DNA of 64,000 nt from Spongiibacter marinus (GTDB lineage: Bacteria > Pseudomonadota > Gammaproteobacteria > Pseudomonadales > Spongiibacteraceae), in the NCBI RefSeq assembly GCF_016906995.1, contig NZ_JAFBBD010000002.1, forward strand, positions 271,667 to 335,666, in the 5' to 3' direction. A program made the position numbers and the translations under genes. Every line of letters begins with the position of its first letter. Position 1 is the stretch's first letter. Below the pieces are notes generated by a model that was given only the letters and a program-made list of their open reading frames with translations, was not told the origin of the DNA and did not search any database. Shown here in pieces: positions 16,395-32,011 of this stretch.

Positions 16395-16407
16395 TCGCAA
16401 AATGCGA
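16395..16407. promoter_or_regulatory. Exopolysaccharide dyad site 1 (upstream of wzx)
   Basis: TCGCA-AAA-TGCGA, a perfect inverted repeat of the TYGCA-AAA-TGCRA family. It lies about 110 bp upstream of the -24 box at 16511. Confidence 0.7.
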
Positions 16408-16434
16408 ATCAAGCCAGATTTATCCGCGCTTGGC

Positions 16435-16447
16435 TAGCATTTTGCCG
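16435..16447. promoter_or_regulatory. Exopolysaccharide dyad site 2 (upstream of wzx)
   Basis: The core GCATTTTGC at 16437-16445 is in opposite orientation to site 1, 40 bp away, with degenerate flanks. It is about 70 bp upstream of the sigma-54 promoter. The remainder of the 16270-16572 interval holds no convincing gene. Confidence 0.6.
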
Positions 16448-16510
16448 GACGTTTCGGGTTCAACGCCCGTGGTAATGGCCTTTAGCGCCAATTTTCAATC
16501 AGGAAAAGGT

Positions 16511-16526
16511 TGGCCTGGTTTTTGCT
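16511..16526 (+). promoter_or_regulatory. Sigma-54 promoter of wzx
   Basis: TGGCCT-N5-TTGCT: the invariant GG and GC are 10 bp apart, as sigma-54 requires. The predicted start near 16537 gives a leader of about 36 nt to ATG 16573. Confidence 0.65.
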
Positions 16527-16572
16527 GAGTAAACGGACCAGTCATTTATTAGTGGTGTTTCAGGGCAAGGGC

Positions 16573-17820
16573 ATGAAATCAGCAAGCAGTTTTCGGCGTA
16601 ATCTCAGTTGGCTGGCAACCGGCGAACTGATGGTTCGCGTGTCGCGATTGATCACGACACTCATCCTGGCTCGCTGCTTGAGTTTGCAGGACTACGGACT
16701 CGCAGCGCTCGCGCTAGCGACCGCGGAGATTGTGAGAATTCTTGCTGCCAATGGCATTGGCAATCTAATCGTCAAAGCCGAGGAGCACAAACTGGGGCGG
16801 GTTTCGCAGACGGTGTTTTGGCTTAACCTGTCTATCGGCATTGTGATGTTTGCGCTGCAGTTTTTCCTCGCCCCCCTTATCGCCGACCTTTACCAATCTC
16901 CCGTTTTGGCCTCGCTGTTACAGGCGCTGGCTTTTAGTCACTTAATTTACCCCTTTGCGATGGTTCAATTTAACCTCTTGCAGCGTGATAGCCGGATGAA
17001 GGAAGCGGGTCTGATTATGGGGGCCACGGTGACAATGGATAACTTGATCAGTGCCGCACTGGCGCTGAGCGGATTCGGTGTCTGGTCGGTCATTTGGCCG
17101 AAGTTATTCGCCGCTGTGGTGTGGGTAGTGGTGATTAATCGGCGCATCCGCTGGGTGCCGAAGCTGCAATTTTCATTGCAGGAACTGGTGACCGCGCGAC
17201 GCTATTCCGGAGGGGTATTGCTCGCAGAGTGCTTAAAAAACGGCCGCGGTCAATTTGACTTATTTATCCTCGGCCGCCTGTTACCAGCTGACCTGTTTGG
17301 GCTTTATGCCTTTGCGCGCAATGCCGGTCTGGGAATAAGTCTGTCGCTGACAAACAGCTTTAATACTGCCTTGCTGCCGAAACTGTGTGATACCCGTCGC
17401 GAGGGTGGTGCACTGGAACTGAGTTATTACTCAAGTTTAAAAACGGCGATGCGACTCATCGCGCCAGTGATTCTTTGCCAGGCACTATTGGCGCCGTTAT
17501 ACGTGCCGTTACTGTTCGGCGAGAAATGGGCGCCAGCCAGTGTGCTTGTTGCGCTTTTGTGTCTGTCGGCGGTTCCGCGAATGGTGTTTGAGTCTGCCAG
17601 TATGTATTTTCGTGCGGCTGACAACTTACGCGGTGAAAATCACATTGCCGTGGCCTTCACCGCGCTGTTTTGTGCGGTGATCGCGGCGTCGAGTTTTCTG
17701 GGAGCGCAAGCCGTCGCCCTGGCAATGATTATTTGCTATCTCGGCGGCGCGTGGGCGGTACTCGTGATGATACACCGCGCACCTCGCGGTGTTATTCGCG
17801 CGCCCTTATCTGCCGCATAG
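16573..17820 (+). CDS. Wzx-type polysaccharide flippase
   Basis: 415 residues with 10-12 hydrophobic helices and the early LSLQDYGLAALALA block typical of the oligosaccharide flippase/MOP family. It would flip undecaprenyl-linked repeat units across the inner membrane for Wzy-dependent polymerisation. I choose ATG 16573 (MKSASSF): the frame is open further upstream, but those codons cover the sigma-54 promoter, and AAGGG precedes 16573. This is the first gene of the plus-strand arm of the exopolysaccharide locus and has two enhancer-like dyads upstream. Confidence 0.87.
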   Translation: MKSASSFRRNLSWLATGELMVRVSRLITTLILARCLSLQDYGLAALALATAEIVRILAANGIGNLIVKAEEHKLGRVSQTVFWLNLSIGIVMFALQFFLAPLIADLYQSPVLASLLQALAFSHLIYPFAMVQFNLLQRDSRMKEAGLIMGATVTMDNLISAALALSGFGVWSVIWPKLFAAVVWVVVINRRIRWVPKLQFSLQELVTARRYSGGVLLAECLKNGRGQFDLFILGRLLPADLFGLYAFARNAGLGISLSLTNSFNTALLPKLCDTRREGGALELSYYSSLKTAMRLIAPVILCQALLAPLYVPLLFGEKWAPASVLVALLCLSAVPRMVFESASMYFRAADNLRGENHIAVAFTALFCAVIAASSFLGAQAVALAMIICYLGGAWAVLVMIHRAPRGVIRAPLSAA

Positions 17821-17892
17821 CGCCACTGCGCTCGGCGTGCTTACCCCTTTTTATTTTCCCCTGATGATCGTCGCTTTAGTCGGCAAGCTGCC

Positions 17893-17905
17893 TTGCAAAA
17901 TGCGA
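17893..17905. promoter_or_regulatory. Exopolysaccharide dyad site 3 (upstream of the initiating transferase)
   Basis: TTGCA-AAA-TGCGA, one mismatch from perfect symmetry. It lies about 92 bp upstream of the -24 box at 17990; the DNA between is very AT-rich and probably easily bent. Confidence 0.72.
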
Positions 17906-17989
17906 ATAGCTTTGCAGTAGCGGTAAAGCTATTTAGCGATAATTTTTAAAAAATATAATAAAAACATAAAGTTAATTTATTTTTTTGTT

Positions 17990-18005
17990 TGGCATAGCGG
18001 TTGCA
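17990..18005 (+). promoter_or_regulatory. Sigma-54 promoter of the ExoY-like gene
   Basis: TGGCAT-AGCGG-TTGCA is a near-consensus -24/-12 element preceded by a T-rich stretch. The predicted start near 18016 is about 27 nt before ATG 18043. This is one of the best matches in the window. Confidence 0.78.
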
Positions 18006-18042
18006 ATTTCCCTGGAAAGCGAACACCAACGGGGTAATTGAT

Positions 18043-18732
18043 ATGCAAGCAATAAAGAATCAGGTCTCCAGTGCCTACCTAATTTTTATTTCCAGCCTGT
18101 TCATGCCCGCCGGGTTATCTCTGCGGAAATTTCTACGCAGTGGTTATAAGCGTAGCTACGACATTGTATTAAGTGGCGGATTGCTATTGCTGCTGTCACC
18201 GCTACTCGTCGTCACAGCGGCGGCCATTCTTTTTGAAAGCCGCGGCCCAATTTTCTTCCGTCAGCAGCGTGTCGGAAAGAATGGCGAGCAGTTTTCAATT
18301 TATAAGTTTCGGTCGATGTGTACTGACAGAGCACTGCATAGACAAGTGGAATCAATGTCAGGTGACCGGGATGGTATCTGCAAGAAATTCGTAAACGACC
18401 CTCGCGTGACACGGGTAGGGCAGTTTATTCGCAAATACTCAATCGATGAGTTACCGCAGCTGATTAATGTACTGCGCGGCGAAATGTCGATGATCGGCCC
18501 GCGCCCGGCACTGCCTGCAGAAGTGGCTCAATACAGCGAGTATCAGCGCGGACGTTTGAAGGCATTACCTGGAATTTCAGGCCTATGGCAGGTGTCTGGC
18601 CGAGCGGATTTGAATTTTGATCAGCAGGTGGAGCTGGATCTGCAGTATATCCGCCAACAAAGCCTGGCCACTGATTTGCGAATAGCGTTGAAAACAGTAC
18701 CTGCGGTGTTGTCGGGAAGCGGGGCGTATTGA
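18043..18732 (+). CDS. ExoY/WcaJ-type initiating sugar-phosphate transferase
   Basis: 229 residues of the bacterial sugar-transferase (polyprenol-phosphate phosphoglycosyltransferase) family. A membrane segment (about 41-64) precedes the catalytic domain with YKFRSM (87-92), the DE pair at 135-136 (SIDELPQL), IGPRP (151-155) and the LPGISGLWQVSGR block (175-187). It transfers a hexose-1-phosphate to undecaprenyl phosphate to start each repeat unit. The protein is the short, single-hydrophobic-domain form rather than the five-helix WbaP form. It has its own sigma-54 promoter and dyad, and leads a tight run of glycosyltransferase genes. Confidence 0.92.
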   Translation: MQAIKNQVSSAYLIFISSLFMPAGLSLRKFLRSGYKRSYDIVLSGGLLLLLSPLLVVTAAAILFESRGPIFFRQQRVGKNGEQFSIYKFRSMCTDRALHRQVESMSGDRDGICKKFVNDPRVTRVGQFIRKYSIDELPQLINVLRGEMSMIGPRPALPAEVAQYSEYQRGRLKALPGISGLWQVSGRADLNFDQQVELDLQYIRQQSLATDLRIALKTVPAVLSGSGAY

Positions 18733-18791
18733 AGAGCGGGCCGTCGGGTATCTGCCCGGCACTGCCAGTAATAGCGAATGAGGAACCAGCG

Positions 18792-19808
18792 ATGAAAAAT
18801 AATCACTCAGCACACCGCGATCAGCCCTTAGTGAGCGTTGTTATTCCAATGTATAACGCAGCGGCCTATCTTCGCGAATGTATTGACTCTGTTATTGCGC
18901 AGAGCTATCCACACCTGGAGATAATTGCGGTGGATGACGGGTCTCCGGACAACGGTGCCGACATCGTGCGGGGCTACCAGGACTCGCGCATTGTGGTTAT
19001 TCAGCAAGAAAACAGGGGCTTGGCCGGTGCGCGCAATACCGGTATTCGCCACGCGCACGGCGCATTTATTGCCCTGCTAGACGCTGACGACAGTTGGCAT
19101 TCAACGAAAATTGCCAGGCACGTAGATCATCTCCTGTCCGACCCTGAAATCGGTGTTAGCTACAGTGCATCGCGGTTTATGAACGAAGCCAGTGTCGATA
19201 TGGGGATCGGCCAGTACCCGAAAACAACGGGCGTCACGGCAGTCGATATATTTTGTAGAAACCCGGTGGGCAATGGCTCTGCGCCCGTCTTCCGCGCAGG
19301 CGTATTTAAGGACATCGCCTTCACGAACGCCGCTGTTGGCCATCGCGACCCGCAATTCTTCGATGAATCCTTTAGACAGTCCGAGGATGTGGAATGCTGG
19401 TTACGGATTGCGCTCTCGACGTCGTGGCGATTCGAGGGGCTGGCGGAGGCCTTAACGAACTACCGCGTAAATGGAGACGGCTTATCGGCGAACTGGGTCA
19501 AGCAATTGGCCGCCTGGGAGCGCAATGTCGACAAAAATCGCGCACTGTCGCCATCATTTTTTAACGACCATGAAGGCTTGGCGCGTGCCTACCAGTATCG
19601 CTACCTTTGCCGGCGTGCCATTCAATCGAGAGATGCGAAGAATGCGGCGCTGTTATTGGTGAAATCACTGCGCAGTGACTGGACGATCTCGCTTAGGGAT
19701 CCTTTAAAAACGGTGCTAACGGCCGGGTGCGCATCGCTGTTGCTGATTCTTCCCACTCGCGGATACGACACCGTTGAGCGACTGATTATGTCGTCAATGC
19801 CGTCATAG
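18792..19808 (+). CDS. Family-2 glycosyltransferase
   Basis: 338 residues with a GT-A fold: start LVSVVIPMYNAAAYL, VDDGS near residue 48-51 and the metal-binding DADD at 97-100. It probably adds one sugar of the repeat unit on the cytoplasmic face. ATG 18792 has AGGA upstream and is preferred over the in-frame codons overlapping the ExoY stop. It is a paralogue of the minus-strand enzyme at 21361, which has the same layout. Confidence 0.88.
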   Translation: MKNNHSAHRDQPLVSVVIPMYNAAAYLRECIDSVIAQSYPHLEIIAVDDGSPDNGADIVRGYQDSRIVVIQQENRGLAGARNTGIRHAHGAFIALLDADDSWHSTKIARHVDHLLSDPEIGVSYSASRFMNEASVDMGIGQYPKTTGVTAVDIFCRNPVGNGSAPVFRAGVFKDIAFTNAAVGHRDPQFFDESFRQSEDVECWLRIALSTSWRFEGLAEALTNYRVNGDGLSANWVKQLAAWERNVDKNRALSPSFFNDHEGLARAYQYRYLCRRAIQSRDAKNAALLLVKSLRSDWTISLRDPLKTVLTAGCASLLLILPTRGYDTVERLIMSSMPS

Positions 19809-19820
19809 GTGCGCCTACAA

Positions 19821-20534
19821 ATGGAGTCCTTAACAAAGCTTGTTGTTAGGCGCGCCCCGCATTATCGGCGGTGGCTCGCTTTGCCCTCCTTGTGGCCACT
19901 GACATTGAGCCTGGCGATTTTATTCTCGGTACTGATGCTGTCGAATACCCTGGGCGTGTCGCCAGAGGCGCTCATAGATGGCCGCACCGGCAGCAGAGGC
20001 CAAGCGGATTGGTACGATGGTTTGCTGGCGAAACTCAGTACCATAGTCTTGGGTATGAGTGCCGCCATATTGCTATTTGCCGTGTATCTACGGCGGCAGG
20101 ATGAGCGCTTCCATTGTCGCAGTAGCGCCAGCTTTTGGTTTGCAAGTTATACCCTGTTATTGCTTTTGCATGATTTATTCTCTGCGCCGATGACAACCGA
20201 CAGTATTCTGGTTGATGTTATCCGAGCCTGTTTCCAAGCGACGTTGGGTTTGTTAGCACTTCTTCTACTTTGGCTGTTTCGTGGGGTTGTCGGCCGGTCG
20301 CGACGCTATGCACTGACTGCGGCGATGTGCTGGGGTATTTCCGTTAGCGTTGATGTACTGATCGACAGTGGTATCAGCAATGGTGTTGCGCTATTGCAGC
20401 TAGAGGAGGGTGCGAAACTGCTGGGTATTTTTTTCTGGGGTCAGTTCTGTGTAGAGCTTTCCAGCCGCAGTATTCGCGAGCCGGCACATATTGGCCGTCG
20501 TACTCCACCGCCTCTGGATGACCACTATGAATAA
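19821..20534 (+). CDS. Hypothetical inner-membrane protein of the exopolysaccharide arm
   Basis: About 237 residues with roughly five hydrophobic helices, separated by short charged loops. I recognise no family. It lies 12 bp after one glycosyltransferase and overlaps the next by 8 bp, so it is made with them. A role in polymer modification, anchoring or regulation at the membrane is possible. GTG 19809 is an alternative start; ATG 19821 is chosen because AGGTG precedes it. Confidence 0.6.
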   Translation: MESLTKLVVRRAPHYRRWLALPSLWPLTLSLAILFSVLMLSNTLGVSPEALIDGRTGSRGQADWYDGLLAKLSTIVLGMSAAILLFAVYLRRQDERFHCRSSASFWFASYTLLLLLHDLFSAPMTTDSILVDVIRACFQATLGLLALLLLWLFRGVVGRSRRYALTAAMCWGISVSVDVLIDSGISNGVALLQLEEGAKLLGIFFWGQFCVELSSRSIREPAHIGRRTPPPLDDHYE

Positions 20535-21321: not shown

Positions 21322-21360
21322 CGCCGTGGCTAAATAGCGCCCGCCAATGGACGGTGCAGG

Positions 21361-22302
21361 CTAGCGCTTCAGTAGCAAGGCAAGTTCCCATTTCAATTTC
21401 CGTTTTGGTAGTAGCCAGCAACGTTTGTCACGTAGTAAGGCCCGCGCTTTATCATATTCGCCGGCCTGTATGTTTAGCTGCGCGATGTGAAGAATATGGT
21501 TAGCGGTTAGCCGTAGCATTGCCTTGCTTCGCGGATCGTTGCTTGCCTCGGCTGTGGCTCGCAGGCGCAGGCTGAATGGGCACTCCTGATCGGGGGGATT
21601 ACTAATACACGCACGATTGTCGGCATCCTGTCGGTAGAGTGCTTTGTATGACCGGGAAAAGGCCATTGGGTATTTATAGGCGATTCTCACCCAAAGGTCC
21701 TGATCTTCTCCCATTGGCTCGTGCAAAGGAAATGCACCAATCTCCTCGAATACGGATTTTGGAATGCAGCAGCTCGACGGGGTAATGGGTAGCTCGCCCC
21801 GACTGGCGACTTCGAAAAAATCATAGCTGAACTGGCTGTGATTTTTTGTGCTCGCTGGAAAGCGCGGATGGATGGGGCGCTCTGTTCCGCTGTTTTCGTA
21901 ATAGTGGGAGTAGGCCGTTGAGTAGGCGCCGCATTCGGGGAATAGGTGAATAAGCGCCTCGATTTCTTGTATTAACCCGGGTTTCCATAGGTCATCGGCG
22001 TCCAGAAACAACAGGTAGTCGGCGGTTGCTGCACTGATGGCAGTATTTCGAGCGGCGGAAACACCGGCGTTCTCTTGTTCGATAAGGCGAATACGCGAGT
22101 CCGATGTCGCCATGCTGCGAACTTTCTCCGGGCCATCGTCGCTGGAGCCGTCATCGACAACAATAATTTCCAAGTTGTCGTAGTTCTGCGCCTGTATGGA
22201 ACGCAGCGCATCGCCAATGTGTGCAGCCTTGTTGTACAAGGGAATAAGAACGGAAAACCGAGGTTGTTTGTCTGTGCTGCTGTCAACATTTGAGGTCGTC
22301 AT
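21361..22302 (-). CDS. Family-2 glycosyltransferase
   Basis: 313 residues: FSVLIPLYNKAAHI at the start, VVDDGSSDDG around 48-57 and DADD at 101-104 form a standard GT-A nucleotide and metal site. The C-terminal half carries a helical tail. It is the last gene of the minus arm and begins 2 bp after the pyruvyl transferase stop. It should add a sugar in the cytoplasm. Confidence 0.88.
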   Translation of the reverse strand: MTTSNVDSSTDKQPRFSVLIPLYNKAAHIGDALRSIQAQNYDNLEIIVVDDGSSDDGPEKVRSMATSDSRIRLIEQENAGVSAARNTAISAATADYLLFLDADDLWKPGLIQEIEALIHLFPECGAYSTAYSHYYENSGTERPIHPRFPASTKNHSQFSYDFFEVASRGELPITPSSCCIPKSVFEEIGAFPLHEPMGEDQDLWVRIAYKYPMAFSRSYKALYRQDADNRACISNPPDQECPFSLRLRATAEASNDPRSKAMLRLTANHILHIAQLNIQAGEYDKARALLRDKRCWLLPKRKLKWELALLLKR

Positions 22303-22304
22303 GG

Positions 22305-23396
22305 CTAGTGAGTCCAGTTACTGAGGGCCATTTTTTCCGCGTCGGCAAGGGGCAAACGGGGCGGGACATAGTCGCCCCGATGTATCGTCGCTATTGCGGT
22401 ACTTAGCGAGTCTTTGTCGACATGCCGACTATCAATGGCAAAGTCAGTCGATTGCTGAATATCGCGGCACCAATTTTCGCATTTGCGGTGATAGTTCAGG
22501 GAAATACACGGGGTATTGCTGAGGTAGGCAAAGACCGCCGCATGGAGTCGCATCGCCACGATCATTGATAGCTTGCTGATTTCCCTAACGGCCTCATAGG
22601 GGGTTGGGTTGTAGGGAATAATCTTGCAGGGCGTCTCGCCAAGTCGCGCGCATAAATCACGGTGTACTTGTTGATCTCCTAATGTGGGGTGCCCATTGAA
22701 GTCGATCAAGCGTATCTCCGCGCCGGTTTCGCGATGATGTTGAATCAAGGCGTCGGCGAGTATCTGGTTGCGCACATGTTCAGCGTTCTCATCGCCGGTG
22801 AGCCGTTCGACGGGACAAAGGGCAACGCCGATAGCGTTGTCGCGCTCGGGCATTAGCGCCTGCTGGAACGCGGGCTGGCTGATCATACTAGGGGCCAGGT
22901 CGAAGGTCAGTGCGGTATTGGCGTTGGGAGCGATACTGCGGGCGATATCGAGACTGGTTTTGTCTCTCAGCCCGGTAAAGGTGCAGGCATTTAGGAATGT
23001 TGCGCAGGCTTTTTCTGCCGCTACGTCATTGAATGGGCCCAGGCCGACGCCTGCTGCACAATGCTGGTTGCTGGTAGCGAGTTTTAAATAGTGGGTTTTT
23101 TGCGCAATATCTTTTGCGGTATGGAAGACAGATCCGCCGCCGATGATAATGTGCTCGCTGCGCGCCGCGGCCCAATACTTGAGCAGCCGGTCCTGGCCTT
23201 TGAAGCGTTGCTTTTTTGCCTGCACGGCGCTTAGCTGCAGTTGCTGCAAGGCCTCACTGCCGCTGGCGCCAGTGGCGGCAATATGCCGGCTGTGATATCG
23301 ACGGCGCGCGCCCTCGGCAGCGGCGGCCATGAGCATATCATCGCCGGTATTTTGCATGCCGTAATAGCCGATTAGCAGGGTGTCGAAGGCAGCCAT
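22305..23396 (-). CDS. Polysaccharide pyruvyl transferase family protein
   Basis: 363 residues with the PF04230 pattern: an N-terminal GYYGMQNTGDDM nucleotide-like loop, the IIGGGSVFH glycine motif in the first third, and the C-terminal MIVAMRLHAAVFAYLSNTPCISLNYHRK block typical of CsaB/WcaK/ExoV proteins. It transfers pyruvate from phosphoenolpyruvate to a sugar as a ketal, adding negative charge to the polymer. It sits between the polymerase and the last glycosyltransferase. The chemistry is inferred from the family. Confidence 0.85.
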   Translation of the reverse strand: MAAFDTLLIGYYGMQNTGDDMLMAAAAEGARRRYHSRHIAATGASGSEALQQLQLSAVQAKKQRFKGQDRLLKYWAAARSEHIIIGGGSVFHTAKDIAQKTHYLKLATSNQHCAAGVGLGPFNDVAAEKACATFLNACTFTGLRDKTSLDIARSIAPNANTALTFDLAPSMISQPAFQQALMPERDNAIGVALCPVERLTGDENAEHVRNQILADALIQHHRETGAEIRLIDFNGHPTLGDQQVHRDLCARLGETPCKIIPYNPTPYEAVREISKLSMIVAMRLHAAVFAYLSNTPCISLNYHRKCENWCRDIQQSTDFAIDSRHVDKDSLSTAIATIHRGDYVPPRLPLADAEKMALSNWTH

Positions 23397-23411
23397 TTTC
23401 TTGGTTCCTAA

Positions 23412-24719
23412 TCAGTGATGCGTTGCCGAAGAACGCTGGCGGAGAATACTTTGTGCGATGGTGTCATTGCGAAAGGCGATGCCGATTAACACCAGCGCCG
23501 GCCAAAACAGATACGCAAGAATTTCCAGGTTTTCACCAAAGCTGAACATAATGAGTATTAGCATACAGGCTAAGCCCGCGCGAGATACGCAGCACCGCTG
23601 GGCCTGCATGAGTAACAGTAATAGGGTGACAAGCATGGGAATCAGCAACGCCAGAAAGCCAACGGCGCCCTTGACGAATAGTAGGCCGTACCAGCTGTGG
23701 TGGGAGCCAATAGGCATATATTCCACCAGGTGAGGCCCTCTTTCTACAACGCCGTGTCCCCAAACAGGCGCTTCATCTCGCCAGCGCTGTATTGCAATTC
23801 TTGCCAGCGCCGAGCGGACTCGGCTCGAGCCTGCGCGGGCAGCTTTGAATTCCGCAATGGAGCTTTCAGCGAAGGCCATGAGTTGGGTGGCTACAACGGC
23901 CACTGCTGATATGCCCACACCGCCAGTTAGCCACAGTGCCGGTGAGTTGAGGCGGGAAATGAAAAAGACCGCTGGCGATACGAAAAGCATTGCAACCAGT
24001 CCGGCGCGAGACTGGCACATAAGCACCATCGCGACACTGCCGATAATGCCGATCCAGCGCCAGCGGATATTTTTTTCCTGCAGTGCAAAGACTAAGTAGA
24101 AATTGGCCAGTAGGCCGGCAGCCGGTGCCCAGGGGGTGAAAAAGCGCCAGCGGGGGCCGAGGGATTCGGGGTTAATGCCATAGAGCTGGAACTCGAAGAA
24201 CTCCGGGCCGGGGCCACCAATTGCTTTGAGTGGCGAAATATAGATAGTGCCCGGAATGGGGGTATACGCGGCGATAACAAATAGCGGAATTAACAACAGC
24301 GTATGCAGGCAAATAACGCAGCAGGCGCGATAAACCAGCTCTGCACGGATAGGTAAGGTGGCGCCAATTAGTATGAAAATGGCCAGTAGTGCCCAGCCCT
24401 TTGCCCAGCCGATCGTGGACTTGATCATCGCGGGCAGGCCGAGATAGAAATCCAAATGCCCCATAATCAAGGCCACTTCCATCACCAGCATGGCGACCAC
24501 CCACAGTATAACCACGGGGTGCGGTTCAACTTGAATCGATCTGGCGCGCATCGGCGCAGGTAGCCACAGGTTGTAGGCCCAGTAGCCGAGCAGAATCCAA
24601 CCGAGCACCGGCGCAATAATGTATACCGCGCCGAGGGCGTAAAAGGGATAGGTAAGAATTAGAGCGTACCAAATCCACTTTTCGATAATATTTTCTGGAG
24701 CAATTGCTTGCGTTTCCAC
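23412..24719 (-). CDS. Wzy-type polysaccharide polymerase / O-antigen ligase family
   Basis: 435 residues with about ten to twelve membrane helices and one large periplasmic loop carrying the WGHGVVERGPH and GSHHSWYGLL segments characteristic of the Wzy_C (O-antigen ligase/polymerase) domain. It would join repeat units at the periplasmic face. The only good start is GTG 24719, which lies 61 nt inside the 3' end of the co-polymerase gene and has no obvious SD, so translation is probably coupled to it. Confidence 0.85.
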   Translation of the reverse strand: METQAIAPENIIEKWIWYALILTYPFYALGAVYIIAPVLGWILLGYWAYNLWLPAPMRARSIQVEPHPVVILWVVAMLVMEVALIMGHLDFYLGLPAMIKSTIGWAKGWALLAIFILIGATLPIRAELVYRACCVICLHTLLLIPLFVIAAYTPIPGTIYISPLKAIGGPGPEFFEFQLYGINPESLGPRWRFFTPWAPAAGLLANFYLVFALQEKNIRWRWIGIIGSVAMVLMCQSRAGLVAMLFVSPAVFFISRLNSPALWLTGGVGISAVAVVATQLMAFAESSIAEFKAARAGSSRVRSALARIAIQRWRDEAPVWGHGVVERGPHLVEYMPIGSHHSWYGLLFVKGAVGFLALLIPMLVTLLLLLMQAQRCCVSRAGLACMLILIMFSFGENLEILAYLFWPALVLIGIAFRNDTIAQSILRQRSSATHH

Positions 24720-26065
24720 AGAAGAAATAATCCGAATAAAGCCATGCCGCTACCCAGCACACCGCCAATAATGGCCAGTAATTTATTGGGTGACGCCGGT
24801 TGGCTGGGAAGAGAAGGGGCTGCAAGTACCTGAATTAGCGGGTAGGACGCAAAGATATCGGTTTTGCTGGTATCGATCTGCGTGATCGCCGAGGTATAAA
24901 CCGCTTCGGCTATTTGATAGTCGCGCTCGAGGTTCTCAAGGATCGCTGCTTCTTCAGCGTAGCGCTTTAAGTTCAGACCATGCTTAGTGATAGCACTTGA
25001 GAGCTGTTGAATTTTGCCAATGAGGCCTTCAATTTTGGCGAAGGACACCAGCAAATCTTGAAAGAGAGCGCTCTGTTTGCCGGCATCATTCATGCTGATC
25101 AGCTTGATGGTGCCCATGTCGTTGTGGCCGACCAATTCTAAGCTGCGCTGTTGCAGGGCTTTGAGCGTGTTGTCTTGTCTCGCGCTTTCTTTTACCACCT
25201 GAGGGTGAGCCTGTCCCCACTTTGAGCGATACACCGCCAGCGTTGTTGTCGCGTTTTGATAATTTTCTAAATGCTCCCGAAACTGTTGGTCGGCATTCAG
25301 GATAAACGCGCTCGCTGCCAGCTGCGGAGTAATGCCTAAGTTGCGAGAAAGTTGGTCGACGTAATTGCTGACTCGGTCGCGCTCGGCCTCGGCTCGTACT
25401 TGCTCTTCTTTCAAACGCTCTAGGCGCAGGCTGAGCTCTTCATACTGACGACCAGACACATATTCAGAGCTTTGCTTGTGCAATACCAAGGCGCGTTGCG
25501 CGGCTTCCAATCGCTCTTTATAGCTTTTTAGCGCTTGCGCAATACCTGCCTCGCGGCGGTCGAGCTCATCAGCGCGGAGGATTTCTATTCGGGTGTTAAA
25601 CGCCGAAATTAGCGCCTGTGCCTGGTCCTGTGCGAGGCGGGGAGAGCCCGCTTTGGTTGCCACTTGGATAATGGTGGTCTCGTCTACGAGCTTTACCACA
25701 GGCTTGCGAAAATCCGCGTAGTCGATATTCAGGGCTTTCGCCGCGCCACCAATCACGCTGGTGCTCAGCAGGATTTCCTTGTAATTCACTCTCGGGTTAA
25801 CACCCCTGGTGCCAAACGGTGAGCTACTACTGCTGCTGGCCTCACCGATGCTTTCCAAATTAACTTTGGTGGATACTGCCTTGCCCGGCAGCATAAACGC
25901 GAATTTACTGACGTACTGGGGCGCCGAGGCAATGTAGAGAAATACCATTCCCCAAATCATTGCAAAGGAGATCACCCCCACCACGATGTATCGCGTCCAG
26001 CGCGGTTTGTCAGCGGGCGCCTTGTAGAGTTGCAGCTCTTGATTTGGCTGTATCGTCGGTGTCAT
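24659..26065 (-). CDS. Wzz/Wzc-like chain-length determinant, no kinase domain
   Basis: 468 residues: a cytoplasmic N-terminus, TM1 at about 28-47, a long periplasmic coiled-coil domain (about 150-400, rich in Glu/Arg/Gln heptads), and TM2 near 432-452 preceded by the Pro-rich PSLPSQPASPNK motif. This is the polysaccharide co-polymerase fold that sets chain length. A Ser-rich insert (SSSSSSP) follows TM1. The C-terminus stops about 15 residues after TM2, so the Wzc/CapB tyrosine-kinase domain is absent. It follows the Wza gene by 21 bp. Confidence 0.88.
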   Translation of the reverse strand: MTPTIQPNQELQLYKAPADKPRWTRYIVVGVISFAMIWGMVFLYIASAPQYVSKFAFMLPGKAVSTKVNLESIGEASSSSSSPFGTRGVNPRVNYKEILLSTSVIGGAAKALNIDYADFRKPVVKLVDETTIIQVATKAGSPRLAQDQAQALISAFNTRIEILRADELDRREAGIAQALKSYKERLEAAQRALVLHKQSSEYVSGRQYEELSLRLERLKEEQVRAEAERDRVSNYVDQLSRNLGITPQLAASAFILNADQQFREHLENYQNATTTLAVYRSKWGQAHPQVVKESARQDNTLKALQQRSLELVGHNDMGTIKLISMNDAGKQSALFQDLLVSFAKIEGLIGKIQQLSSAITKHGLNLKRYAEEAAILENLERDYQIAEAVYTSAITQIDTSKTDIFASYPLIQVLAAPSLPSQPASPNKLLAIIGGVLGSGMALFGLFLLWKRKQLLQKILSKSGFGTL

Positions 26066-26086
26066 GTCACTTCTCAGCCGCGCAGA

Positions 26087-27364
26087 TCAAAAGAGTGAAA
26101 AGGGAGTGGCGACGTCGACAATCGCTCTGGCGATATCACGCCAATTCCCTATTGTAGAGTCATAGCAGCTAACGGTGTCGTTGGGTAGTAAATAGGGATT
26201 GATATCGTCGGAATCTGGATTGCGCAGCAGTTCTTCGACATTGCGTTTCATAATTTCGCTCTCGCCACTGATGGGGTTAGTGCCCACCAACACGACGTAG
26301 CGTGAGGCATTGGTGAATTGCGTGCCGCCACTGCAGTTGCCCGATACCACAGCCTGGTGTAGCCGCGTGCCGTAGGGCATGCTGCTGCTGTATTTCCCTA
26401 CGGCGGCAGAGGCGTTGTTGCTTGCTGGATTGGTCAAATTTGAAATGAACACCCGTATTCCCTTTGGCGTGATTTGACTCGGGCGAATCAGCTCGGCTTG
26501 CATGCAGCCTGCTGAGGGAACGATCACTTGATCGCCTGCAATCAACGGCACGTCGTGGGTGTGCTGGCCCGAAAATATCCCTGCGAGATTGATTTCTTGC
26601 TGCCAGCCGTCGCGAATCAGCAAAACTTTGTCTACACGCGCGTCAGGGCGTGCACCCGCTGCTGCGCGTATGGCTTCACTGAGATAGCGTTTGGTGGGGT
26701 AGTCGCCGCTGATGCGAATTTTACTGTCGTCGGTCTGCGCGGGAATCAGGTCGTTGATGAGTACGCGGCCAGGCTCAAATACCGCGCCTGACACCGAAAC
26801 CATAATGGGGGCCCACTGAAGCGGGCGCACACTGATGTGAAGGGTGTGGGCGAGAAACATCTGTTGGGCAACCAGCATGATGCGCAGGCGGTTCTCCACT
26901 TCTTCGGTGTCCAGTCCAACCACCTGCACCGGGGCGAGGTAGGGAAGCTCAATATTGCCATCGTGGTTAACCAAGTACTCGCCGCTGAACTCCTCCCCTT
27001 CATGGATGCGAATTTCGATTCTGTCGCCCGGTGACAGTGGCAGCAAGCGCCGGCCTTGGCTGTTTAACGATCGCGGGGTACCGGGATTTCGCCACTGCTG
27101 CGCTAAGGGTTCATCGACACGATAGTCCGCACTGTTCAGCGCCATGCCGCTGCCATCGGTCGAGCAGGTATTCACCGCCATGCGACTGCTAAACTCGTGG
27201 CGTTGTTCCACCTCTGGCGTGTCGCGCTCAGGCAGGCTTGTCGAAATATCCGGCATCGACGCACAGGCCGCCAGTGTTAATGCGACACTGGCGAGGACGG
27301 CGCGGCGGTAGCGTCGCGGCGTGAAAAGGCGGTGTGCAGATAGGGTCCATTTGGCAATGTTCAT
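26087..27364 (-). CDS. Wza-like outer-membrane polysaccharide export lipoprotein
   Basis: 425 residues. The N-terminus has a basic region and hydrophobic core ending in the lipobox LAAC, so the mature protein is lipidated. The Poly_export domain is clear (LSPGDRIEIRIHEGEEFSGE, GNIELPYL), followed by SLBB-like folds (VDKVLLIRDG... and the DVPLIAGDQVIVPS block). The C-terminal 130 residues are longer than in a minimal exporter. It forms the outer-membrane channel. This is the first gene of the five-gene minus arm and has a near-perfect sigma-54 promoter and two dyads upstream. Confidence 0.9.
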   Translation of the reverse strand: MNIAKWTLSAHRLFTPRRYRRAVLASVALTLAACASMPDISTSLPERDTPEVEQRHEFSSRMAVNTCSTDGSGMALNSADYRVDEPLAQQWRNPGTPRSLNSQGRRLLPLSPGDRIEIRIHEGEEFSGEYLVNHDGNIELPYLAPVQVVGLDTEEVENRLRIMLVAQQMFLAHTLHISVRPLQWAPIMVSVSGAVFEPGRVLINDLIPAQTDDSKIRISGDYPTKRYLSEAIRAAAGARPDARVDKVLLIRDGWQQEINLAGIFSGQHTHDVPLIAGDQVIVPSAGCMQAELIRPSQITPKGIRVFISNLTNPASNNASAAVGKYSSSMPYGTRLHQAVVSGNCSGGTQFTNASRYVVLVGTNPISGESEIMKRNVEELLRNPDSDDINPYLLPNDTVSCYDSTIGNWRDIARAIVDVATPFSLF

Positions 27365-27428
27365 AGCGCTTTCCTGCTGCTGATTGGGTTGATCTCACTG
27401 CTATTGTGAGACGGCATATCTTGAATAT

Positions 27429-27444
27429 TGCAGGGGGCGTGCCA
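27429..27444 (-). promoter_or_regulatory. Sigma-54 promoter of the wza-wzz-wzy arm
   Basis: On the minus strand, TGGCAC-GCCCC-CTGCA: the -24 box is a perfect consensus TGGCAC(G) and the -12 GC is at the right spacing. The predicted start near 27417 is about 53 nt before ATG 27364. Confidence 0.78.
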
Positions 27445-27508
27445 GCTGGCGTGAATAAAAATATGCTTTGAAAACAGTAGGATAGTGTTTTTTGTCGACG
27501 GCGGGAAA

Positions 27509-27521
27509 TTGCAAAATGCAA
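27509..27521. promoter_or_regulatory. Exopolysaccharide dyad site 4 (upstream of wza)
   Basis: TTGCA-AAA-TGCAA, perfectly symmetric, about 72 bp upstream of the -24 box of the wza promoter. Confidence 0.75.
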
Positions 27522-27535
27522 ATCGTGCCTTGCGT

Positions 27536-27548
27536 TTGCATTTTGCGA
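27536..27548. promoter_or_regulatory. Exopolysaccharide dyad site 5 (upstream of wza)
   Basis: TTGCA-TTT-TGCGA, 27 bp centre-to-centre from site 4 and in inverted orientation. It is about 99 bp upstream of the -24 box. The two sites together form a classic double enhancer. The rest of the 27365-27610 spacer shows no gene. Confidence 0.75.
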
Positions 27549-27610
27549 ATCATATTGCTGGAGGGTGCGCCACCGCAGTGGCGGTATACGATGTGGTGCG
27601 ATCCTTAGCT

Positions 27611-28846
27611 CTAGCTGGCCTGCCGCAGCCTGAGTAGAAACAGAGGGTTGCCAATGATGTAGCGCTTCCACATCCGGCCCGGTTCTTGTAGTAGCCGCCA
27701 GATCCATTCCATACCCAGCTCACGCAGCCACAGGGGCGCCCGGGATACCTTCTCGGCATAGAAGTCGAATAAGCCGCCAACGGCGATGACGACTGGGCTA
27801 TTCAGTTGCTCCCGGTGGGCGATAATCCACTGTTCCTGGAGGGGTTGACCCATGCCGACCAGCAGCACGTCCGCCCCGCTATCGTTAATTTTATCGACGA
27901 TGTCCTGGCAGTGCTGTTTGTCGAAATAGCCGTGCTGTGTGCCGGCGCTTCGCAAGTGTGGCTGTTGCTTCAACATTGCCTGCATCGCGGCATCGGCAAT
28001 TCCGTCTTCACCGCCGAGCATGAACAGGCGCTGGCCGCGTTGGGCGAGTTGCTCGCACAGCAAAGGCAGCATATCGGTGCCGTTTACATTGCCCTTACGG
28101 CGAATACCGTTGCGCCGACAGGCCATTTCGATACCGCTGCCATCGGGCAGCATATAGTCTGCTTGATTCAGTTGTGATCGCAGTTCGCTGTTGTTGTAGG
28201 CGAGATTTAAGGTGTGGGCGTTCGCGAAGAAAACTGTCGCACGATGTCGATGTGTCACGTGCTTATTAATCACCGAAAGTGCGTTTTCCATTGAGATGTT
28301 GGCGATGTTTACGCCAAAAATCGTAAAACTGTCGACGTCTTTCAGAGTTTTGCCGCCGCTGTACAACAGGCCTGCTAGCAGCGATTTGCCGATGATGGCA
28401 GCGTCTGTTTTGAATCCCTGCTTGTCGGCGTATTCGAGATTGCAGGCCTCTTCGTCGATAAAGTCGATACCAGAAATTCGTCGCAGTTCGAACAGTGAAA
28501 ACATACCTGGATTCAGGGTTTCGGTACCCGCTGCAGCGGGCTCTTGCTCGGTGCGCGCTCGGTAACCGACCAGTGCCAGCTCGCCTTTAATGACGTTTAG
28601 GAGCAACGGCAGGCGACTGAGGTTTGCCTGATCGTGCAGCAGTAGGGCGGGCACGCCATCACCGGCAGCGCTGTGCAAGGTAACGCGGTCAACGATTTTT
28701 TTGCCTTTAATCAGGCGAAACAGAGTATGAGCGAAAAGCCACGGAGCGAAGGCTAACGCGGCTGCCACTGCCAATATACGGTCTGTTTTTTTTACACAGC
28801 GTAGCTGGGCGTTGAGCGATTTGTTGTAAACGGTGTGATGGCGCAT
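27611..28846 (-). CDS. WecG/TagA/CpsF glycosyltransferase fused to a degenerate sugar-transferase domain
   Basis: 411 residues. The C-terminal 235 residues are a GT26 (WecG/TagA) enzyme: ANAHTLNLA (T212), LPDGSGI (D235), NGTDM and the GMGQPLQEQWI and VGGLFDFYAEK blocks. The N-terminal 165 residues resemble the ExoY-type initiating transferase (a hydrophobic start, then LPLLLNVIKGELALVGYRA), but the DE catalytic pair and the PRP and LPGITG motifs are lost. The active part would add an N-acetylmannosaminuronate-like sugar. AGAGGA precedes ATG 28846. It is transcribed alone upstream of wza, from its own sigma-54 promoter. Confidence 0.85.
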   Translation of the reverse strand: MRHHTVYNKSLNAQLRCVKKTDRILAVAAALAFAPWLFAHTLFRLIKGKKIVDRVTLHSAAGDGVPALLLHDQANLSRLPLLLNVIKGELALVGYRARTEQEPAAAGTETLNPGMFSLFELRRISGIDFIDEEACNLEYADKQGFKTDAAIIGKSLLAGLLYSGGKTLKDVDSFTIFGVNIANISMENALSVINKHVTHRHRATVFFANAHTLNLAYNNSELRSQLNQADYMLPDGSGIEMACRRNGIRRKGNVNGTDMLPLLCEQLAQRGQRLFMLGGEDGIADAAMQAMLKQQPHLRSAGTQHGYFDKQHCQDIVDKINDSGADVLLVGMGQPLQEQWIIAHREQLNSPVVIAVGGLFDFYAEKVSRAPLWLRELGMEWIWRLLQEPGRMWKRYIIGNPLFLLRLRQAS

Positions 28847-28879
28847 GCTGGCATCCTCTCGGCTGTTTAGAGCTAAAGG

Positions 28880-28895
28880 GGCAATGCCTGTGCCA
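28880..28895 (-). promoter_or_regulatory. Sigma-54 promoter of the WecG fusion gene
   Basis: TGGCAC-AGGCA-TTGCC on the minus strand: a perfect -24 box and TTGC at the -12. The predicted start near 28868 is about 22 nt before ATG 28846. Confidence 0.78.
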
Positions 28896-28994
28896 GACGC
28901 GTAAAATTATTTTAAGTCTATGATTTATAAGTGCTTGTCAAAGGATTAGGTGGGTTTTTAACGGCGCAGAGAGTGGTTCGATAGCCAGCATGAT

Positions 28995-29007
28995 TTGCAT
29001 TTTGCAA
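28995..29007. promoter_or_regulatory. Exopolysaccharide dyad site 6 (upstream of the WecG fusion)
   Basis: TTGCA-TTT-TGCAA, perfectly symmetric, about 107 bp upstream of the -24 box of the promoter at 28880. It lies between that gene and the end of the hybrid kinase. Confidence 0.75.
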
Positions 29008-29057
29008 TGCAACTGGCTTGCCGGTGATGCTAAGCCGCACTGCGAGAAACATTAGGC

Positions 29058-31781
29058 TTAGAATGACCGCGCTTCTAACTCAGCGACCGCATGATTGAGG
29101 GCCTCTTTGCCCGACGAGAATTTCTCGCCGGATACCGAAAGTAGCTCCATAAGAAGCTGGGTATTTTCAGCATCGCAGCATTTTTCGATCTGCAAACAAT
29201 AGTCCTGCAACGACGTTGCGCCGCAATAACCAAGATTACTTTTCGCGGAGTGCACGGCGTCGCGAAGCCCGGCGAGTGCTGGTTGATCGACGGAGTCCGC
29301 AATCGCTGCAGTCAGAGACTGCAACTTATCAAGCTGCTCCACGACCATTTTTAAAATAATGAGCGCGGTCTCTAACCCTGTATCGACAACGAGTTGTTCA
29401 AGGATCGTGGTGTCTATCTCCGCGGCATACAGGGCTGCAGTGAGTGTTGCGGTGTTGCCCACGTCATCTTGGGAGCTGGACGCAGCGGTTTGTTCAACAG
29501 GCAGCCAGGACTCAAGTGTGTTCAGCAATTCATCGCGGTTTACCGGTTTAGACAGGAAACCATCCATGCCCGCGTCTTCACAGCGCTTTACATCGGTATC
29601 GAAGGCATTGGCGGTCATTGCGATAATTGGGGTGTTGCGCTCTTTACCGGGCAATTGGCGGATGTGTCGGGTTGCCTCTAAACCGTCCATTTCAGGCATG
29701 CGCAAATCCATTAGCACCAAGTCGTAGCGGCCACTGGTTACGGCCATTAATGCCTCAATGCCGTTGGCGACGATGTCGACTTGATAGCCGGCGCGCAACA
29801 ACAGAGTCTTCGCGACTAACTGGTTTGCTTCGTTATCCTCTGCGAGTAGGAGCTTGTGCCGGCTTGGGTTTATTTCGTCGGTGGTGTGTTCATCGGCGGG
29901 CTCCGATTCGGCGTCGCCGTCGAGAATGGCAAGGAGCTGGCTCGGCCGAAAGGGGCGATACATCATATGTTGGAAGCCGGCCTTGCTACTGTGTTGCAAG
30001 AGTTCCGCCGAAAAATTGCGGTTGTACAGCACCACTTGTTGAATGGGGATCTGCTGCGCCATCAATAACGTGCTCAATTTTTCCGGTGTGGCAAAGCAGC
30101 GCATGTCCACGATCAGTATGTCGCGTGCAGATAATTTCGGAAGGTTCTCTAAGGCACGAATTGCGATGGCTTCTATGCCCAGCCAGTCCGCTTGTTGCAG
30201 TATGCTGGCAAGCAGTGTTTTGTTGTCGCTCCGCAAAAACAGCCTGCCTGGTGCGCGTTTTGGCTTTGCCAGGCTGGGAAGGCTAGTGCTACTTGCATTG
30301 ACCGGTATCTCAACGCGGAACCGGCAGCCTTCGCCTTTTTTGCTCGTCAGCGAGATTCTGCCGTCGAGCAATTCAGTCAGTTTTTTACATATGACTAAGC
30401 CAAGGCCCGTGCCGCCGTGAACGGCGCTGTCACTATTATCTACTTGAGAGAATTCATTAAATAACTTCTCTTGATCCTCTTCTGAAATCCCAACCCCAGA
30501 GTCGCGCACTTCAAGTACCAGTCCGAGTCGGCCGTCAGCCAGTTTTTCATCGGTTTGAGAGATTTTTAGATTTACGCCGCCAGAGTCAGTGAACTTAATC
30601 GCGTTATCGAGAAGGTTGGTGACGATACGCCGTACAAAGCTCAGGTCACTGATTACCGTTTTCGGTATGCGGGGGTCGATGCAGGCGGAGATCTCGATAT
30701 CTTTATTTACCGCGCGAATGGTTGATACCTCCATCACGCGCTCACATTGCTCTAATAAACTGAACTTGCTGGAGTGAATTTCTTGTTGCCCGGACTCGAT
30801 TTTTGAAAAGTCCAGCACGTCTTCTATGACGCTTAATAAACTATTGCCTGCCGCAAGTGAGGTCTCTGCCAGCATGCGTTGCTCGGTGGATAAATCGCCT
30901 TCAAGCAGCAGGTCCATACAGCCAATAACGGCGTTCAGGGGCGAGCGAATCTCGTGGCTCATATGCGCGAGAAAGCTGGATTTAGCCTTACTGCTTGCGA
31001 CTGCGGTTTCCCTTGCCTGAGTAAGCGCTTTTTCCCGCTCGATGCGCGTTGTAATGTCTCGAATGGTTGCGGTAAAGAAGGTTTGCCCTTCGAATTCGGC
31101 AGTGGGAACAACGGTTAGCTCGCAGGGGAAGAGGCTGCCATCTCGCCGGATAGCTTCTACTTCTATCCGCGTATTCAGAACAGGCCCCTGCCGGGTCTTA
31201 TTGAAGTTGGCCATGCCCTCGTTGTGAGATTTTCTCATGCCGTGGGGAATGACGATGTCCGCCACATGTTTACCGACCACCTCTTCCCGGGTGTAGCCAA
31301 AGAGTTGTTCCGCAGAGCTGCCAAATTCATGGATGACGCTCTTGTCATCAATGGTAATGATGGCGTCGAGGCTGGACTCGTACAGTGAGCGGGAGATGAT
31401 TTCCAGGTGCTTTTGCTGGCGTTGAATACGACTCAGCCCCAATCGATCGGGGTAGATCGTCAGTAGAAAACGCCCCGCCGGCTCATCAGAGGCCGTAAGG
31501 TGGAGGATAAGCGGCTCGCCATCCATGGTTGCGGCAAAGCTTTGCGATGCGACGCCAGCCGCCGCCCCGGATTTGAGTGAATGCAGCGCAGCACTGGGCA
31601 GGCGGTCACGTAGTTTGTCTCCCGGACTGACTGACGCGAGAGACCGAAGTGTATCGATAGGGCCGCGGTGCAGAATGCGGGTAATGGTGCCCTCGTGGTC
31701 GATCTCAAATTCAGCCCAGCTTTCAATACTTCTGCTGCCAGCCTGCGGCTGCTTTGAGGGACGATCGTCAGTCATAAGCAT
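29058..31781 (-). CDS. Hybrid histidine kinase PAS-HisKA-HATPase-(pseudoREC)-REC-HPt
   Basis: 907 residues with no membrane helix, hence a cytoplasmic sensor. Domains in order: an unassigned PAS-like N-terminus, PAS (133-245, LFGYTREEVVGKHV), HisKA with H276 in FLAHMSHEIRSPLN, HATPase with N393 and GGTGLGL near 457, a degenerate receiver (512-625) without the normal acidic pocket, a true receiver with D692 (LMDLRMPEMDG), and HPt with H844 (AVHSAKSNLGYCGA). This is an ArcB/SypF-style four-step phosphorelay. It faces the REC-HPt/bEBP pair, which it most likely feeds. No sigma-54 promoter is visible for it. The AT-rich leader gives no strong SD; ATG 31775 is an alternative start. Confidence 0.9.
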   Translation of the reverse strand: MLMTDDRPSKQPQAGSRSIESWAEFEIDHEGTITRILHRGPIDTLRSLASVSPGDKLRDRLPSAALHSLKSGAAAGVASQSFAATMDGEPLILHLTASDEPAGRFLLTIYPDRLGLSRIQRQQKHLEIISRSLYESSLDAIITIDDKSVIHEFGSSAEQLFGYTREEVVGKHVADIVIPHGMRKSHNEGMANFNKTRQGPVLNTRIEVEAIRRDGSLFPCELTVVPTAEFEGQTFFTATIRDITTRIEREKALTQARETAVASSKAKSSFLAHMSHEIRSPLNAVIGCMDLLLEGDLSTEQRMLAETSLAAGNSLLSVIEDVLDFSKIESGQQEIHSSKFSLLEQCERVMEVSTIRAVNKDIEISACIDPRIPKTVISDLSFVRRIVTNLLDNAIKFTDSGGVNLKISQTDEKLADGRLGLVLEVRDSGVGISEEDQEKLFNEFSQVDNSDSAVHGGTGLGLVICKKLTELLDGRISLTSKKGEGCRFRVEIPVNASSTSLPSLAKPKRAPGRLFLRSDNKTLLASILQQADWLGIEAIAIRALENLPKLSARDILIVDMRCFATPEKLSTLLMAQQIPIQQVVLYNRNFSAELLQHSSKAGFQHMMYRPFRPSQLLAILDGDAESEPADEHTTDEINPSRHKLLLAEDNEANQLVAKTLLLRAGYQVDIVANGIEALMAVTSGRYDLVLMDLRMPEMDGLEATRHIRQLPGKERNTPIIAMTANAFDTDVKRCEDAGMDGFLSKPVNRDELLNTLESWLPVEQTAASSSQDDVGNTATLTAALYAAEIDTTILEQLVVDTGLETALIILKMVVEQLDKLQSLTAAIADSVDQPALAGLRDAVHSAKSNLGYCGATSLQDYCLQIEKCCDAENTQLLMELLSVSGEKFSSGKEALNHAVAELEARSF

Positions 31782-31875
31782 TTACGTAGTCGCGAAAGGT
31801 AATCTGAGTATTTGATATCTGGTCGGCGCAGTCAATTTCCGCCTGGCTGGCCATATTGCTGAGTTGCAGAACAGT

Positions 31876-31888
31876 TTGCATTTTGCAA
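31876..31888. promoter_or_regulatory. Exopolysaccharide dyad site 7 (kinase / REC-HPt spacer)
   Basis: TTGCA-TTT-TGCAA, perfectly symmetric, within TTTGCATTTTGCAAA. It is about 95 bp upstream of the kinase start and about 115 bp upstream of the plus-strand sigma-54-like element at 31996, so it may regulate either or both. Confidence 0.72.
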
Positions 31889-31995: not shown

Positions 31996-32011
31996 TGGTG
32001 CCGATATTGCG
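31996..32011 (+). promoter_or_regulatory. Possible sigma-54 promoter of the REC-HPt/bEBP operon
   Basis: TGGTGC-CGATA-TTGCG keeps the invariant GG-N10-GC and the TTGC -12 box but has a weaker -24 box than the other four. The predicted start near 32022 is about 38 nt before ATG 32060. Confidence 0.5.

Follow-up and report, generated by a model that had tools for sequence, protein, structure and literature searches.

Dyads matching the LuxO enhancer motif at sigma-54 promoters of an exopolysaccharide locus in Spongiibacter marinus

A 64-kb stretch of the Spongiibacter marinus genome (64,000 nucleotides of contig NZ_JAFBBD010000002.1; referred to here as the window) contains an exopolysaccharide locus in which short inverted repeats, or dyads, recur ahead of the transcription units (Table 1). 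The locus includes genes for a Wzx-type flippase, a sugar-phosphate transferase, a Wza-type export protein and glycosyltransferases. Beside these lie genes for a hybrid histidine kinase, for a protein that joins a receiver to a histidine phosphotransfer (Hpt) domain (RR-Hpt) and for a LuxO-type sigma-54 activator, here called the 32876 protein after the position at which its gene begins. We interpret the dyads, with a probability of about 0.87, as LuxO-type enhancers that the 32876 regulator uses on the exopolysaccharide units and on its own operon.

The dyads and their promoters

The 9-bp core of the dyads, GCAAAATGC, occurs eight times in the window. The expectation from 100 shuffles is 1.75 (s.d. 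1.46, maximum 5), higher than the roughly 0.5 copies estimated in a first-pass annotation made from the letters of the window. Each of the seven cores listed in that annotation was located at its position. They had been described as always lying between genes, which is correct for those seven; the eighth copy (4364–4372) is coding, within the open reading frame (ORF) 3817..6618. The intergenic fraction of the window is 8.8% according to the gene list made in this analysis, and seven of eight cores are intergenic (binomial P = 3 × 10−7). Seven copies of a 13-bp dyad had also been claimed; six fit the 13-mer TYGCANNNTGCRA (TYGCA-N3-TGCRA; 0.59 expected in the window, 100 shuffles) and the copy at 16435–16447 is imperfect. 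A motif search recovered the three perfect TTGCA dyads and the single TCGCA-AAA-TGCGA as described. Measured against the LuxO consensus TTGCAWWWTGCAA, three of the seven dyads are exact, three are variants in which T/A is replaced by C/G at the second positions of one or both outer pairs, and one is imperfect.

Downstream of every dyad region, at 64–108 bp, lies a sigma-54 −24/−12 element, weak at one promoter. The scan made GG-N10-GC obligatory and scored out of 12 with a threshold of 9; four of the five dyad promoter regions score 10–11 and the fifth is below 9. The genome contains rpoN. The listed starts of two ORFs overlap the sigma-54 promoters, and we therefore prefer the in-frame ATGs at 16573 and 18043, which are probably the true starts of the wzx and transferase genes; a TTG start at 16510 is unlikely for the wzx ORF because the element begins one base further on. 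The paired sites of the wza promoter are also present in aligned relatives, and are not both perfect in every case. An Rfam scan of the window returned one tRNA and nothing else.

Table 1 Features of the exopolysaccharide locus by position in the window (G numbers are our labels for genomes of the genus comparison)
Feature	Position	Strand	Remarks
LuxO-type dyad TCGCAAAATGCGA, perfect palindrome variant TCGCA-AAA-TGCGA	16395..16407		Upstream of wzx; kept in the wzx promoters of G007, G002 and G008
Imperfect second dyad TAGCATTTTGCCG	16435..16447		64 bp before the sigma-54 element; no counterpart in the G007, G002 and G008 alignment
Sigma-54 −24/−12 element TGGCCTGGTTTTTGCT	16511..16526	+	Score 10 of 12; 104 bp from the dyad at 16395
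Wzx-type polysaccharide flippase	16573..17820	+	PF13440, PF01943; start codon inferred
LuxO-type dyad TTGCAAAATGCGA	17893..17905		Upstream of the sugar-phosphate transferase; conserved in aligned promoters
Sigma-54 element TGGCATAGCGGTTGCA	17990..18005	+	Score 10; 85 bp from the dyad
Polyprenyl glycosylphosphotransferase	18043..18732	+	PF02397; TIGR03025 slightly under cut-off; start codon inferred
ORFs after the glycosylphosphotransferase	up to 21321	+	
Glycosyltransferase-like (candidate)	21361–22302	-	End of the Wza run; placed by gene order
Pyruvyl transferase	22305–23396	-	PF04230
Wzy-like polymerase	23412–24719	-	Wzy_C match under Pfam cut-off
Wzc-like	24659–26065	-	In the Wza run
Wza-type export protein	26087..27364	-	PF02563; heads the − strand run
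Sigma-54 element TGGCACGCCCCCTGCA	27429..27444	-	Score 11, highest in the window; wza promoter
LuxO-type dyad TTGCAAAATGCAA, perfect	27509..27521		65 bp from the wza element
LuxO-type dyad TTGCATTTTGCGA	27536..27548		92 bp from the wza element
WecG/TagA/CpsF glycosyltransferase	27611..28846	-	PF03808; N-terminal partial sugar-transferase domain PF02397
Sigma-54 element TGGCACAGGCATTGCC	28880..28895	-	Score 10; 100 bp from the dyad
LuxO-type dyad TTGCATTTTGCAA, perfect	28995..29007		Upstream of the WecG-type glycosyltransferase
Hybrid histidine kinase	29058..31781	-	PAS, HisKA (SHEIR from residue 275), HATPase, receiver, Hpt (VHSAKSN from 843)
LuxO-type dyad TTGCATTTTGCAA, perfect	31876..31888		Between the kinase gene and the RR-Hpt and activator genes
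Weak sigma-54-like element TGGTGCCGATATTGCG	31996..32011	+	Under the threshold of 9; 108 bp from the dyad
Receiver + Hpt protein (RR-Hpt)	32060..32839	+	LLLDEHMP from residue 60; AHILKNS from 203
LuxO-type sigma-54 activator	32876..34315	+	Receiver (Asp57), AAA+ with GAFSGA at 226, Fis-type helix-turn-helix with STIYRK at 465

Dyads, promoters and regulator across the genus

An orthologue of the activator is present in 7 of 18 Spongiibacter genomes, that of S. marinus included, and the other six proteins are 64–70% identical to it; for the remaining 11 genomes, absence means no match at E = 1 × 10−120. Dyads of the form TYGCAWWWTGCRA are more numerous in the genomes with the regulator (8, 10, 8, 6, 7, 8 and 5; mean 7.4) than in those without a match (3, 7, 3, 2, 1, 2, 1, 5, 3, 3 and 1; mean 2.8) (P = 7 × 10−4, 7 versus 11 genomes; Mann–Whitney U-test). 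Among the 52 dyads of the seven genomes, 39 lie in regulator loci, a figure that includes two contig ends (G008:C7 and G004:C8) joined to those loci by presumption, from gene order. A sigma-54 element with a score of at least 9 is found at 60–135 bp from 36 of the 39, and one with a score of at least 10 from 31 of the 39. The corresponding background rates in the same stretches are 12.9% for random intergenic positions and 4.7% for random positions at the lower score, and 9.2% and 1.2% at the higher one. Outside the regulator loci, none of the 11 dyads examined has such an element and 8 are within ORFs (there are 13 such dyads; two in G016, outside its locus, were left out). A related-genome search for the 13-mer had been proposed with the first-pass annotation, and the association of the motif with sigma-54 promoters and with a 32876-type regulator holds in the genus.

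The association count uses trimmed, nonredundant stretches and excludes loci L098 (one dyad, inside an ORF, with no sigma-54 site printed) and L100; the genus figure of 35 dyads in 17 loci includes L098 and counts one dyad twice, owing to the overlap of L095 and L096. Because the dyad list guided the choice of loci, their density of dyads does not count as independent evidence; the independent evidence consists of the sigma-54 association and the genome-wide TYGCAWWWTGCRA counts. In five alignments of orthologous promoters (4–7 sequences each), the letters of the dyad and of the −24/−12 element are conserved amid a diverged background.

Within four relatives (G001, G002, G007 and G008), dyad-promoter units precede exopolysaccharide genes that are orthologous to those of the window, and the regulator's own RR-Hpt/activator operon is likewise preceded by a dyad unit. 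The Wzy-like gene at 23412 occurs in 5 of the 18 genomes, all five of which carry the regulator. The dyad-promoter units of G008, and partly those of G001, are also found ahead of genes whose domain matches point to a Tad-like pilus: a secretin with a pilus N-domain, a TPR protein, small pilin-like proteins, two T2SSF proteins, and a CpaB-like protein and a TadA-type ATPase that are both under the NCBI cut-offs. Genes of similar length and order are found in G004 and G016. The Tad-like assignment derives from Pfam and NCBIfam scans in G008 and, partly, in G001 and Psychromonas, and from gene order and lengths in G004, G016 and Pseudomaricurvus.

The Tad-like module of G008 (L097:6302–16289 and L095:1–5918) has its own dyads and is flanked by an EamA transporter gene on one side and wzx on the other. 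In the window, this interval (16269–16573) is no more than a short gap containing two dyads; a whole co-regulated module would thus have been gained or lost, the two G008 contigs being joined by presumption. Separately, G001 has a duplicated unit of transferase and glycosyltransferase (L089:5477–8332), in which the sigma-54 element is identical in both copies and the dyads are TTGCATTTTGCAA and GTGCATTTTGCAA, one of them imperfect.

A known motif and a LuxO-like activator

LuxO is the textbook quorum-sensing activator. Its upstream activating sequence is TTGCAWWWTGCAA and is sigma-54-dependent (PMC10162802), and a chromatin immunoprecipitation table for V. cholerae lists ttgcaaaatgcaa at qrr1 and ttgcattttgcaa at qrr3 (PMC10328515). 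These two strings recur as the three perfect sites in the window. The dyad motif is the known LuxO-type enhancer motif, and the first-pass description of the motif as undescribed does not stand. The rest of that reading (a dyad for a Fis-type helix-turn-helix (HTH) dimer, an enhancer-binding protein encoded at 32876 and an exopolysaccharide regulon) is probably right, as judged from sequence; the sigma-54 promoters, the LuxO kinship of the regulator and the presence of these sites at pilus genes of relatives go beyond it. Literature with the printed LuxO consensus string concerned Vibrio only, in a search that other printed forms of the motif could escape, and no LuxO-type sites outside Vibrio were seen in the literature searched, in which coverage of subscription journals is thin. 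As a positive control, we found the TYGCAWWWTGCRA dyad in 27 of the loci around 29 LuxO genes that score above the curated cut-off; around 70 other NtrC-family activators it is at chance level (1 versus 1.0).

The 32876 protein matches LuxO (NF041946) best among the NCBI families, at 560.8 bits, followed by NtrC at 405.3, and its best match among Protein Data Bank sequences is LuxO 5ep0 (E = 5.5 × 10−120). In the order to which Psychromonas SP041 belongs, 29 of 394 genomes encode a protein above the LuxO cut-off of 800 bits. The HTH stretch GNIPLAAACLGVSASTIYRK of the 32876 protein aligns with a 20-residue stretch of these LuxO sequences, with NIP and STIYRK retained; a proline at the Pro454 position together with the ST-x-YRK helix is present in 29 of 29 such sequences and in none of seven other NtrC-family sequences. 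The protein has the receiver, sigma-54 AAA+ domain and Fis-type HTH ending in ST-x-YRK that we used to delimit the LuxO/SypG group. In ten of the genomes whose LuxO exceeds the cut-off, a second activator scores 575–618 bits against the LuxO model (L166–L175). We treat it as a candidate SypG on the grounds of score, clade and motif, and of the genes present at a single locus, L172. The scan of L172 returned STAS, OmpA, SLBB export, Wzy and Wzz genes, which we take to be the content expected of syp.

In a tree of 65 sequences, including 8 of the 29 above-cut-off LuxO proteins, the LuxO/SypG group is separated from the seven other NtrC-family sequences by a node with support of 100/99. The 32876 protein does not group with above-cut-off LuxO in this tree. 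It belongs to a clade of its own (100/98), whose members come from Spongiibacter, Pseudomaricurvus, Psychromonas, UBA5109 and two further sources; LuxO and the SypG candidates each form a separate clade (both 100/100), with the order of branching among the three unsettled. All 12 sequences of this clade, and one sequence outside it (L108), have Ser for the Thr of GAFTGA (GSFSGA in Psychromonas); the Thr is retained in the 29 LuxO and 10 SypG-candidate sequences.

The locus is like the Vibrio LuxO/qrr system in its 13-bp site, its sigma-54 elements, the receiver–AAA+–Fis HTH layout of the activator and the STIYRK recognition helix. It is unlike that system in that the Spongiibacter sites precede structural surface genes and that the activator falls in a separate clade, with GAFSGA and a score under the curated cut-off. 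A search for Qrr RNA (RF00378) gave no match in the S. marinus genome, and the control genomes gave none either.

Regulator and dyads outside the genus

Related activators occur beside dyads in other gammaproteobacteria. In Psychromonas sp. SP041 (L010), whose activator is 59% identical, there are dyads ahead of a SAF/T2SSE gene set and of an EAL-domain gene; in Pseudomaricurvus alcaniphilus (L009; 61% identical), they stand before a kinase gene and before the gene for the activator; and in UBA5109 (L011), before a CS1-type usher gene cluster. Four of the five dyads found genome-wide in Psychromonas sp. SP041, and three of the five in P. alcaniphilus, are no farther than about 20 kb from the regulator. 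The SP041 activator groups with those of Pseudomaricurvus and Spongiibacter, which are of other families. Given this grouping across families and the clustering of the SP041 dyads around the activator, the regulator and its targets look to have been transferred horizontally.

Among fifteen LuxO-like loci of other gammaproteobacteria, 6 hold dyads, 8 in total, and each of the 8 has a sigma-54 element of score at least 9 at 60–135 bp. These include dyads ahead of a response regulator accompanied by sugar transferase and glycosyltransferase genes (L121), ahead of genes that neighbour a phosphonate-type binding protein and a hybrid kinase (L123) and ahead of the activator's own gene (L130). Ten more loci, from the order of Psychromonas, hold 5 dyads in 4 loci, 2 of the 5 with a qualifying element; one dyad precedes a STAS–OmpA–SLBB export operon (L176).

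Evidence against the reading and alternative explanations

Several observations weigh against LuxO-type enhancers used by the 32876 regulator. The protein scores 560.8 bits against the curated LuxO cut-off of 800, and its sigma-54 contact loop (residues 226–231; window 33551–33568) reads GAFSGA in place of GAFTGA, a form counted among the variants expected to remain active (PMC4641369). One genome without the regulator, G005, holds seven TYGCAWWWTGCRA dyads, and in another, G014, one of the two dyads examined has a score-11 sigma-54 element at 94 bp (L197, G014:C13:202412–202424); this dyad would be the site of another LuxO-like activator or a remnant target. The 3 of 39 regulator-locus dyads that have no qualifying element are all before the RR-Hpt gene, and the element of the RR-Hpt promoter in the window is only weak; at this promoter, a GG-N10-GC is present at the matching place in six relatives and scores 9 in four. 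Beyond the genus the sigma-54 link is patchy, with a qualifying element at one of seven dyads in the Pseudomaricurvus, Psychromonas and UBA5109 loci together. Dyads are also lacking from 9 of 15, 6 of 10 and 3 of 9 distant LuxO-like loci, so the pairing of activator and site is not universal in the neighbourhoods seen; several of the loci sampled across the class are short contigs, and the group L008–L016 includes L008, which is the same place as L103.

The alternatives have to account for the same sites. That the dyads are chance palindromes in intergenic DNA is the least credible explanation. It can appeal to the bare 9-mer, which lacks specificity: the genome has 85 copies of it and 40 of the reversed pattern. 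The 13-mer TYGCAWWWTGCRA is specific, with 8 copies in the 3.57-Mb genome, 6 of them at the exopolysaccharide locus, and of the 5 copies of TTGCANNNTGCAA in the genome the 3 with an all-A/T spacer are all in the window. None of the 100 shuffles attains the window counts of GCAAAATGC or TYGCANNNTGCRA, the reversed pattern is absent from the genus loci, and 36 of the 39 regulator-locus dyads are associated with sigma-54 elements. It is quite improbable that another DNA-binding protein, a second enhancer-binding protein or a repressor, uses the dyads while the 32876 regulator binds elsewhere. Eight further matches over the sigma-54 AAA+ region are encoded in the genome, which leaves room for such a protein, yet the dyads track the 32876 orthologue across the 18 genomes, and LuxO, with a nearly identical recognition helix, is published at the same site (PMC10162802).

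Slightly less probable still is a plain syp system, in which the dyads would serve a SypG orthologue as its enhancer. In Vibrio fischeri, syp has a phosphorelay-fed sigma-54 activator with a kinase alongside and an enhancer before each exopolysaccharide operon (PMC10804989), which is the same kind of job; the gene content of the window would fit a phosphorelay-driven activation of several exopolysaccharide operons, the sites share a 3-bp spacer, and the 575–618 bits of the SypG candidates are close to the 561 of the 32876 protein. The enhancer published for SypG, TTCTCANNNTGMDWN, however, has the half-site TTCTCA/TGAGA (PMC10162802), whereas that of the window is TTGCA/TGCAA. Tested as the palindrome TCTCAWWWTGAGA, it occurs 17 times in the ten SypG-candidate loci (199 kb), in every one of them, with no LuxO-type dyads; the 18 loci of the 32876 clade contain 46 distinct LuxO-type dyads (47 before correction for the L095/L096 overlap) and no TCTCAWWWTGAGA. 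The candidates also form their own clade and have NVLN or NVIN in the HTH where the 32876 protein has NIPL, and SypG orthology was dropped on motif and tree. As a separate matter, if TCTCAWWWTGAGA is its full form, the syp enhancer would be longer than published and a dyad, with the 3-bp spacer of the LuxO site. The exopolysaccharide setting also suggested the PrsK/PrsR system of PEP-CTERM exopolysaccharide loci, in which sigma-54 promoters and an NtrC-type regulator are likewise tied to exopolysaccharide (PMC1569441). That the dyads belong to this system is highly improbable: in its favour are sigma-54, an activator of the Fis type and weak XrtA-system matches among the exopolysaccharide genes, but TIGR02915 gives 354.7 against a cut-off of 502.6 and covers residues 30–395 only, and the published PrsR motif 1 lies around TTTACA (PMC1569441). 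The identity was dropped on the profile scores, in an analysis that included no genome search for PrsK, PrsT or PEP-CTERM proteins (literature in PMC9850573 and PMC1569441).

Discussion

The analysis establishes the motif, the promoter elements and their spacing, their conservation, the co-occurrence with the regulator and the similarity of the HTH. Binding and activation we infer: the dyads would be LuxO-type enhancers with a SypG-like job. A signal would reach the hybrid kinase, and phosphate would pass through the Hpt domains, including that of the RR-Hpt protein as a possible phosphotransfer intermediate, to Asp57 of the activator; such a relay is probable, and His, Asp and Hpt motifs are present in the kinase and the RR-Hpt protein. 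Dimers of the LuxO-like response regulator would bind the dyads through the Fis-type HTH and, once phosphorylated, contact and remodel the sigma-54 polymerase at −24/−12 promoters 64–108 bp away. Four exopolysaccharide transcription units would be activated together with the RR-Hpt operon of the activator itself, giving positive feedback. Because sister species carry the same sites before Tad-pilus-like genes, the system looks like a surface-attachment switch.

What appears to be new is that the motif belongs to a GAFSGA branch within the LuxO/SypG group and is used directly at genes for surface polysaccharide and pili. More tentatively, and with the odds against it, LuxO-type enhancers may from early on have served gammaproteobacteria as a switch for surface matter (exopolysaccharide, pili of the Tad-like and usher types, and the phosphorelay itself), of which the Vibrio Qrr quorum circuit would be one late use; the GAFSGA clade would then be a third branch beside LuxO and SypG that moves between bacteria with its targets. 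In Spongiibacter, the LuxO site and a nearly identical recognition helix are tied to exopolysaccharide and pilus genes, which suggests a readable cis-code, in which TTGCA-type sites indicate LuxO-like control and TCTCA-type sites SypG-like control. Such a code would allow surface-attachment regulons to be predicted from DNA, and the role of LuxO-type activators before Qrr RNAs becomes a testable question.

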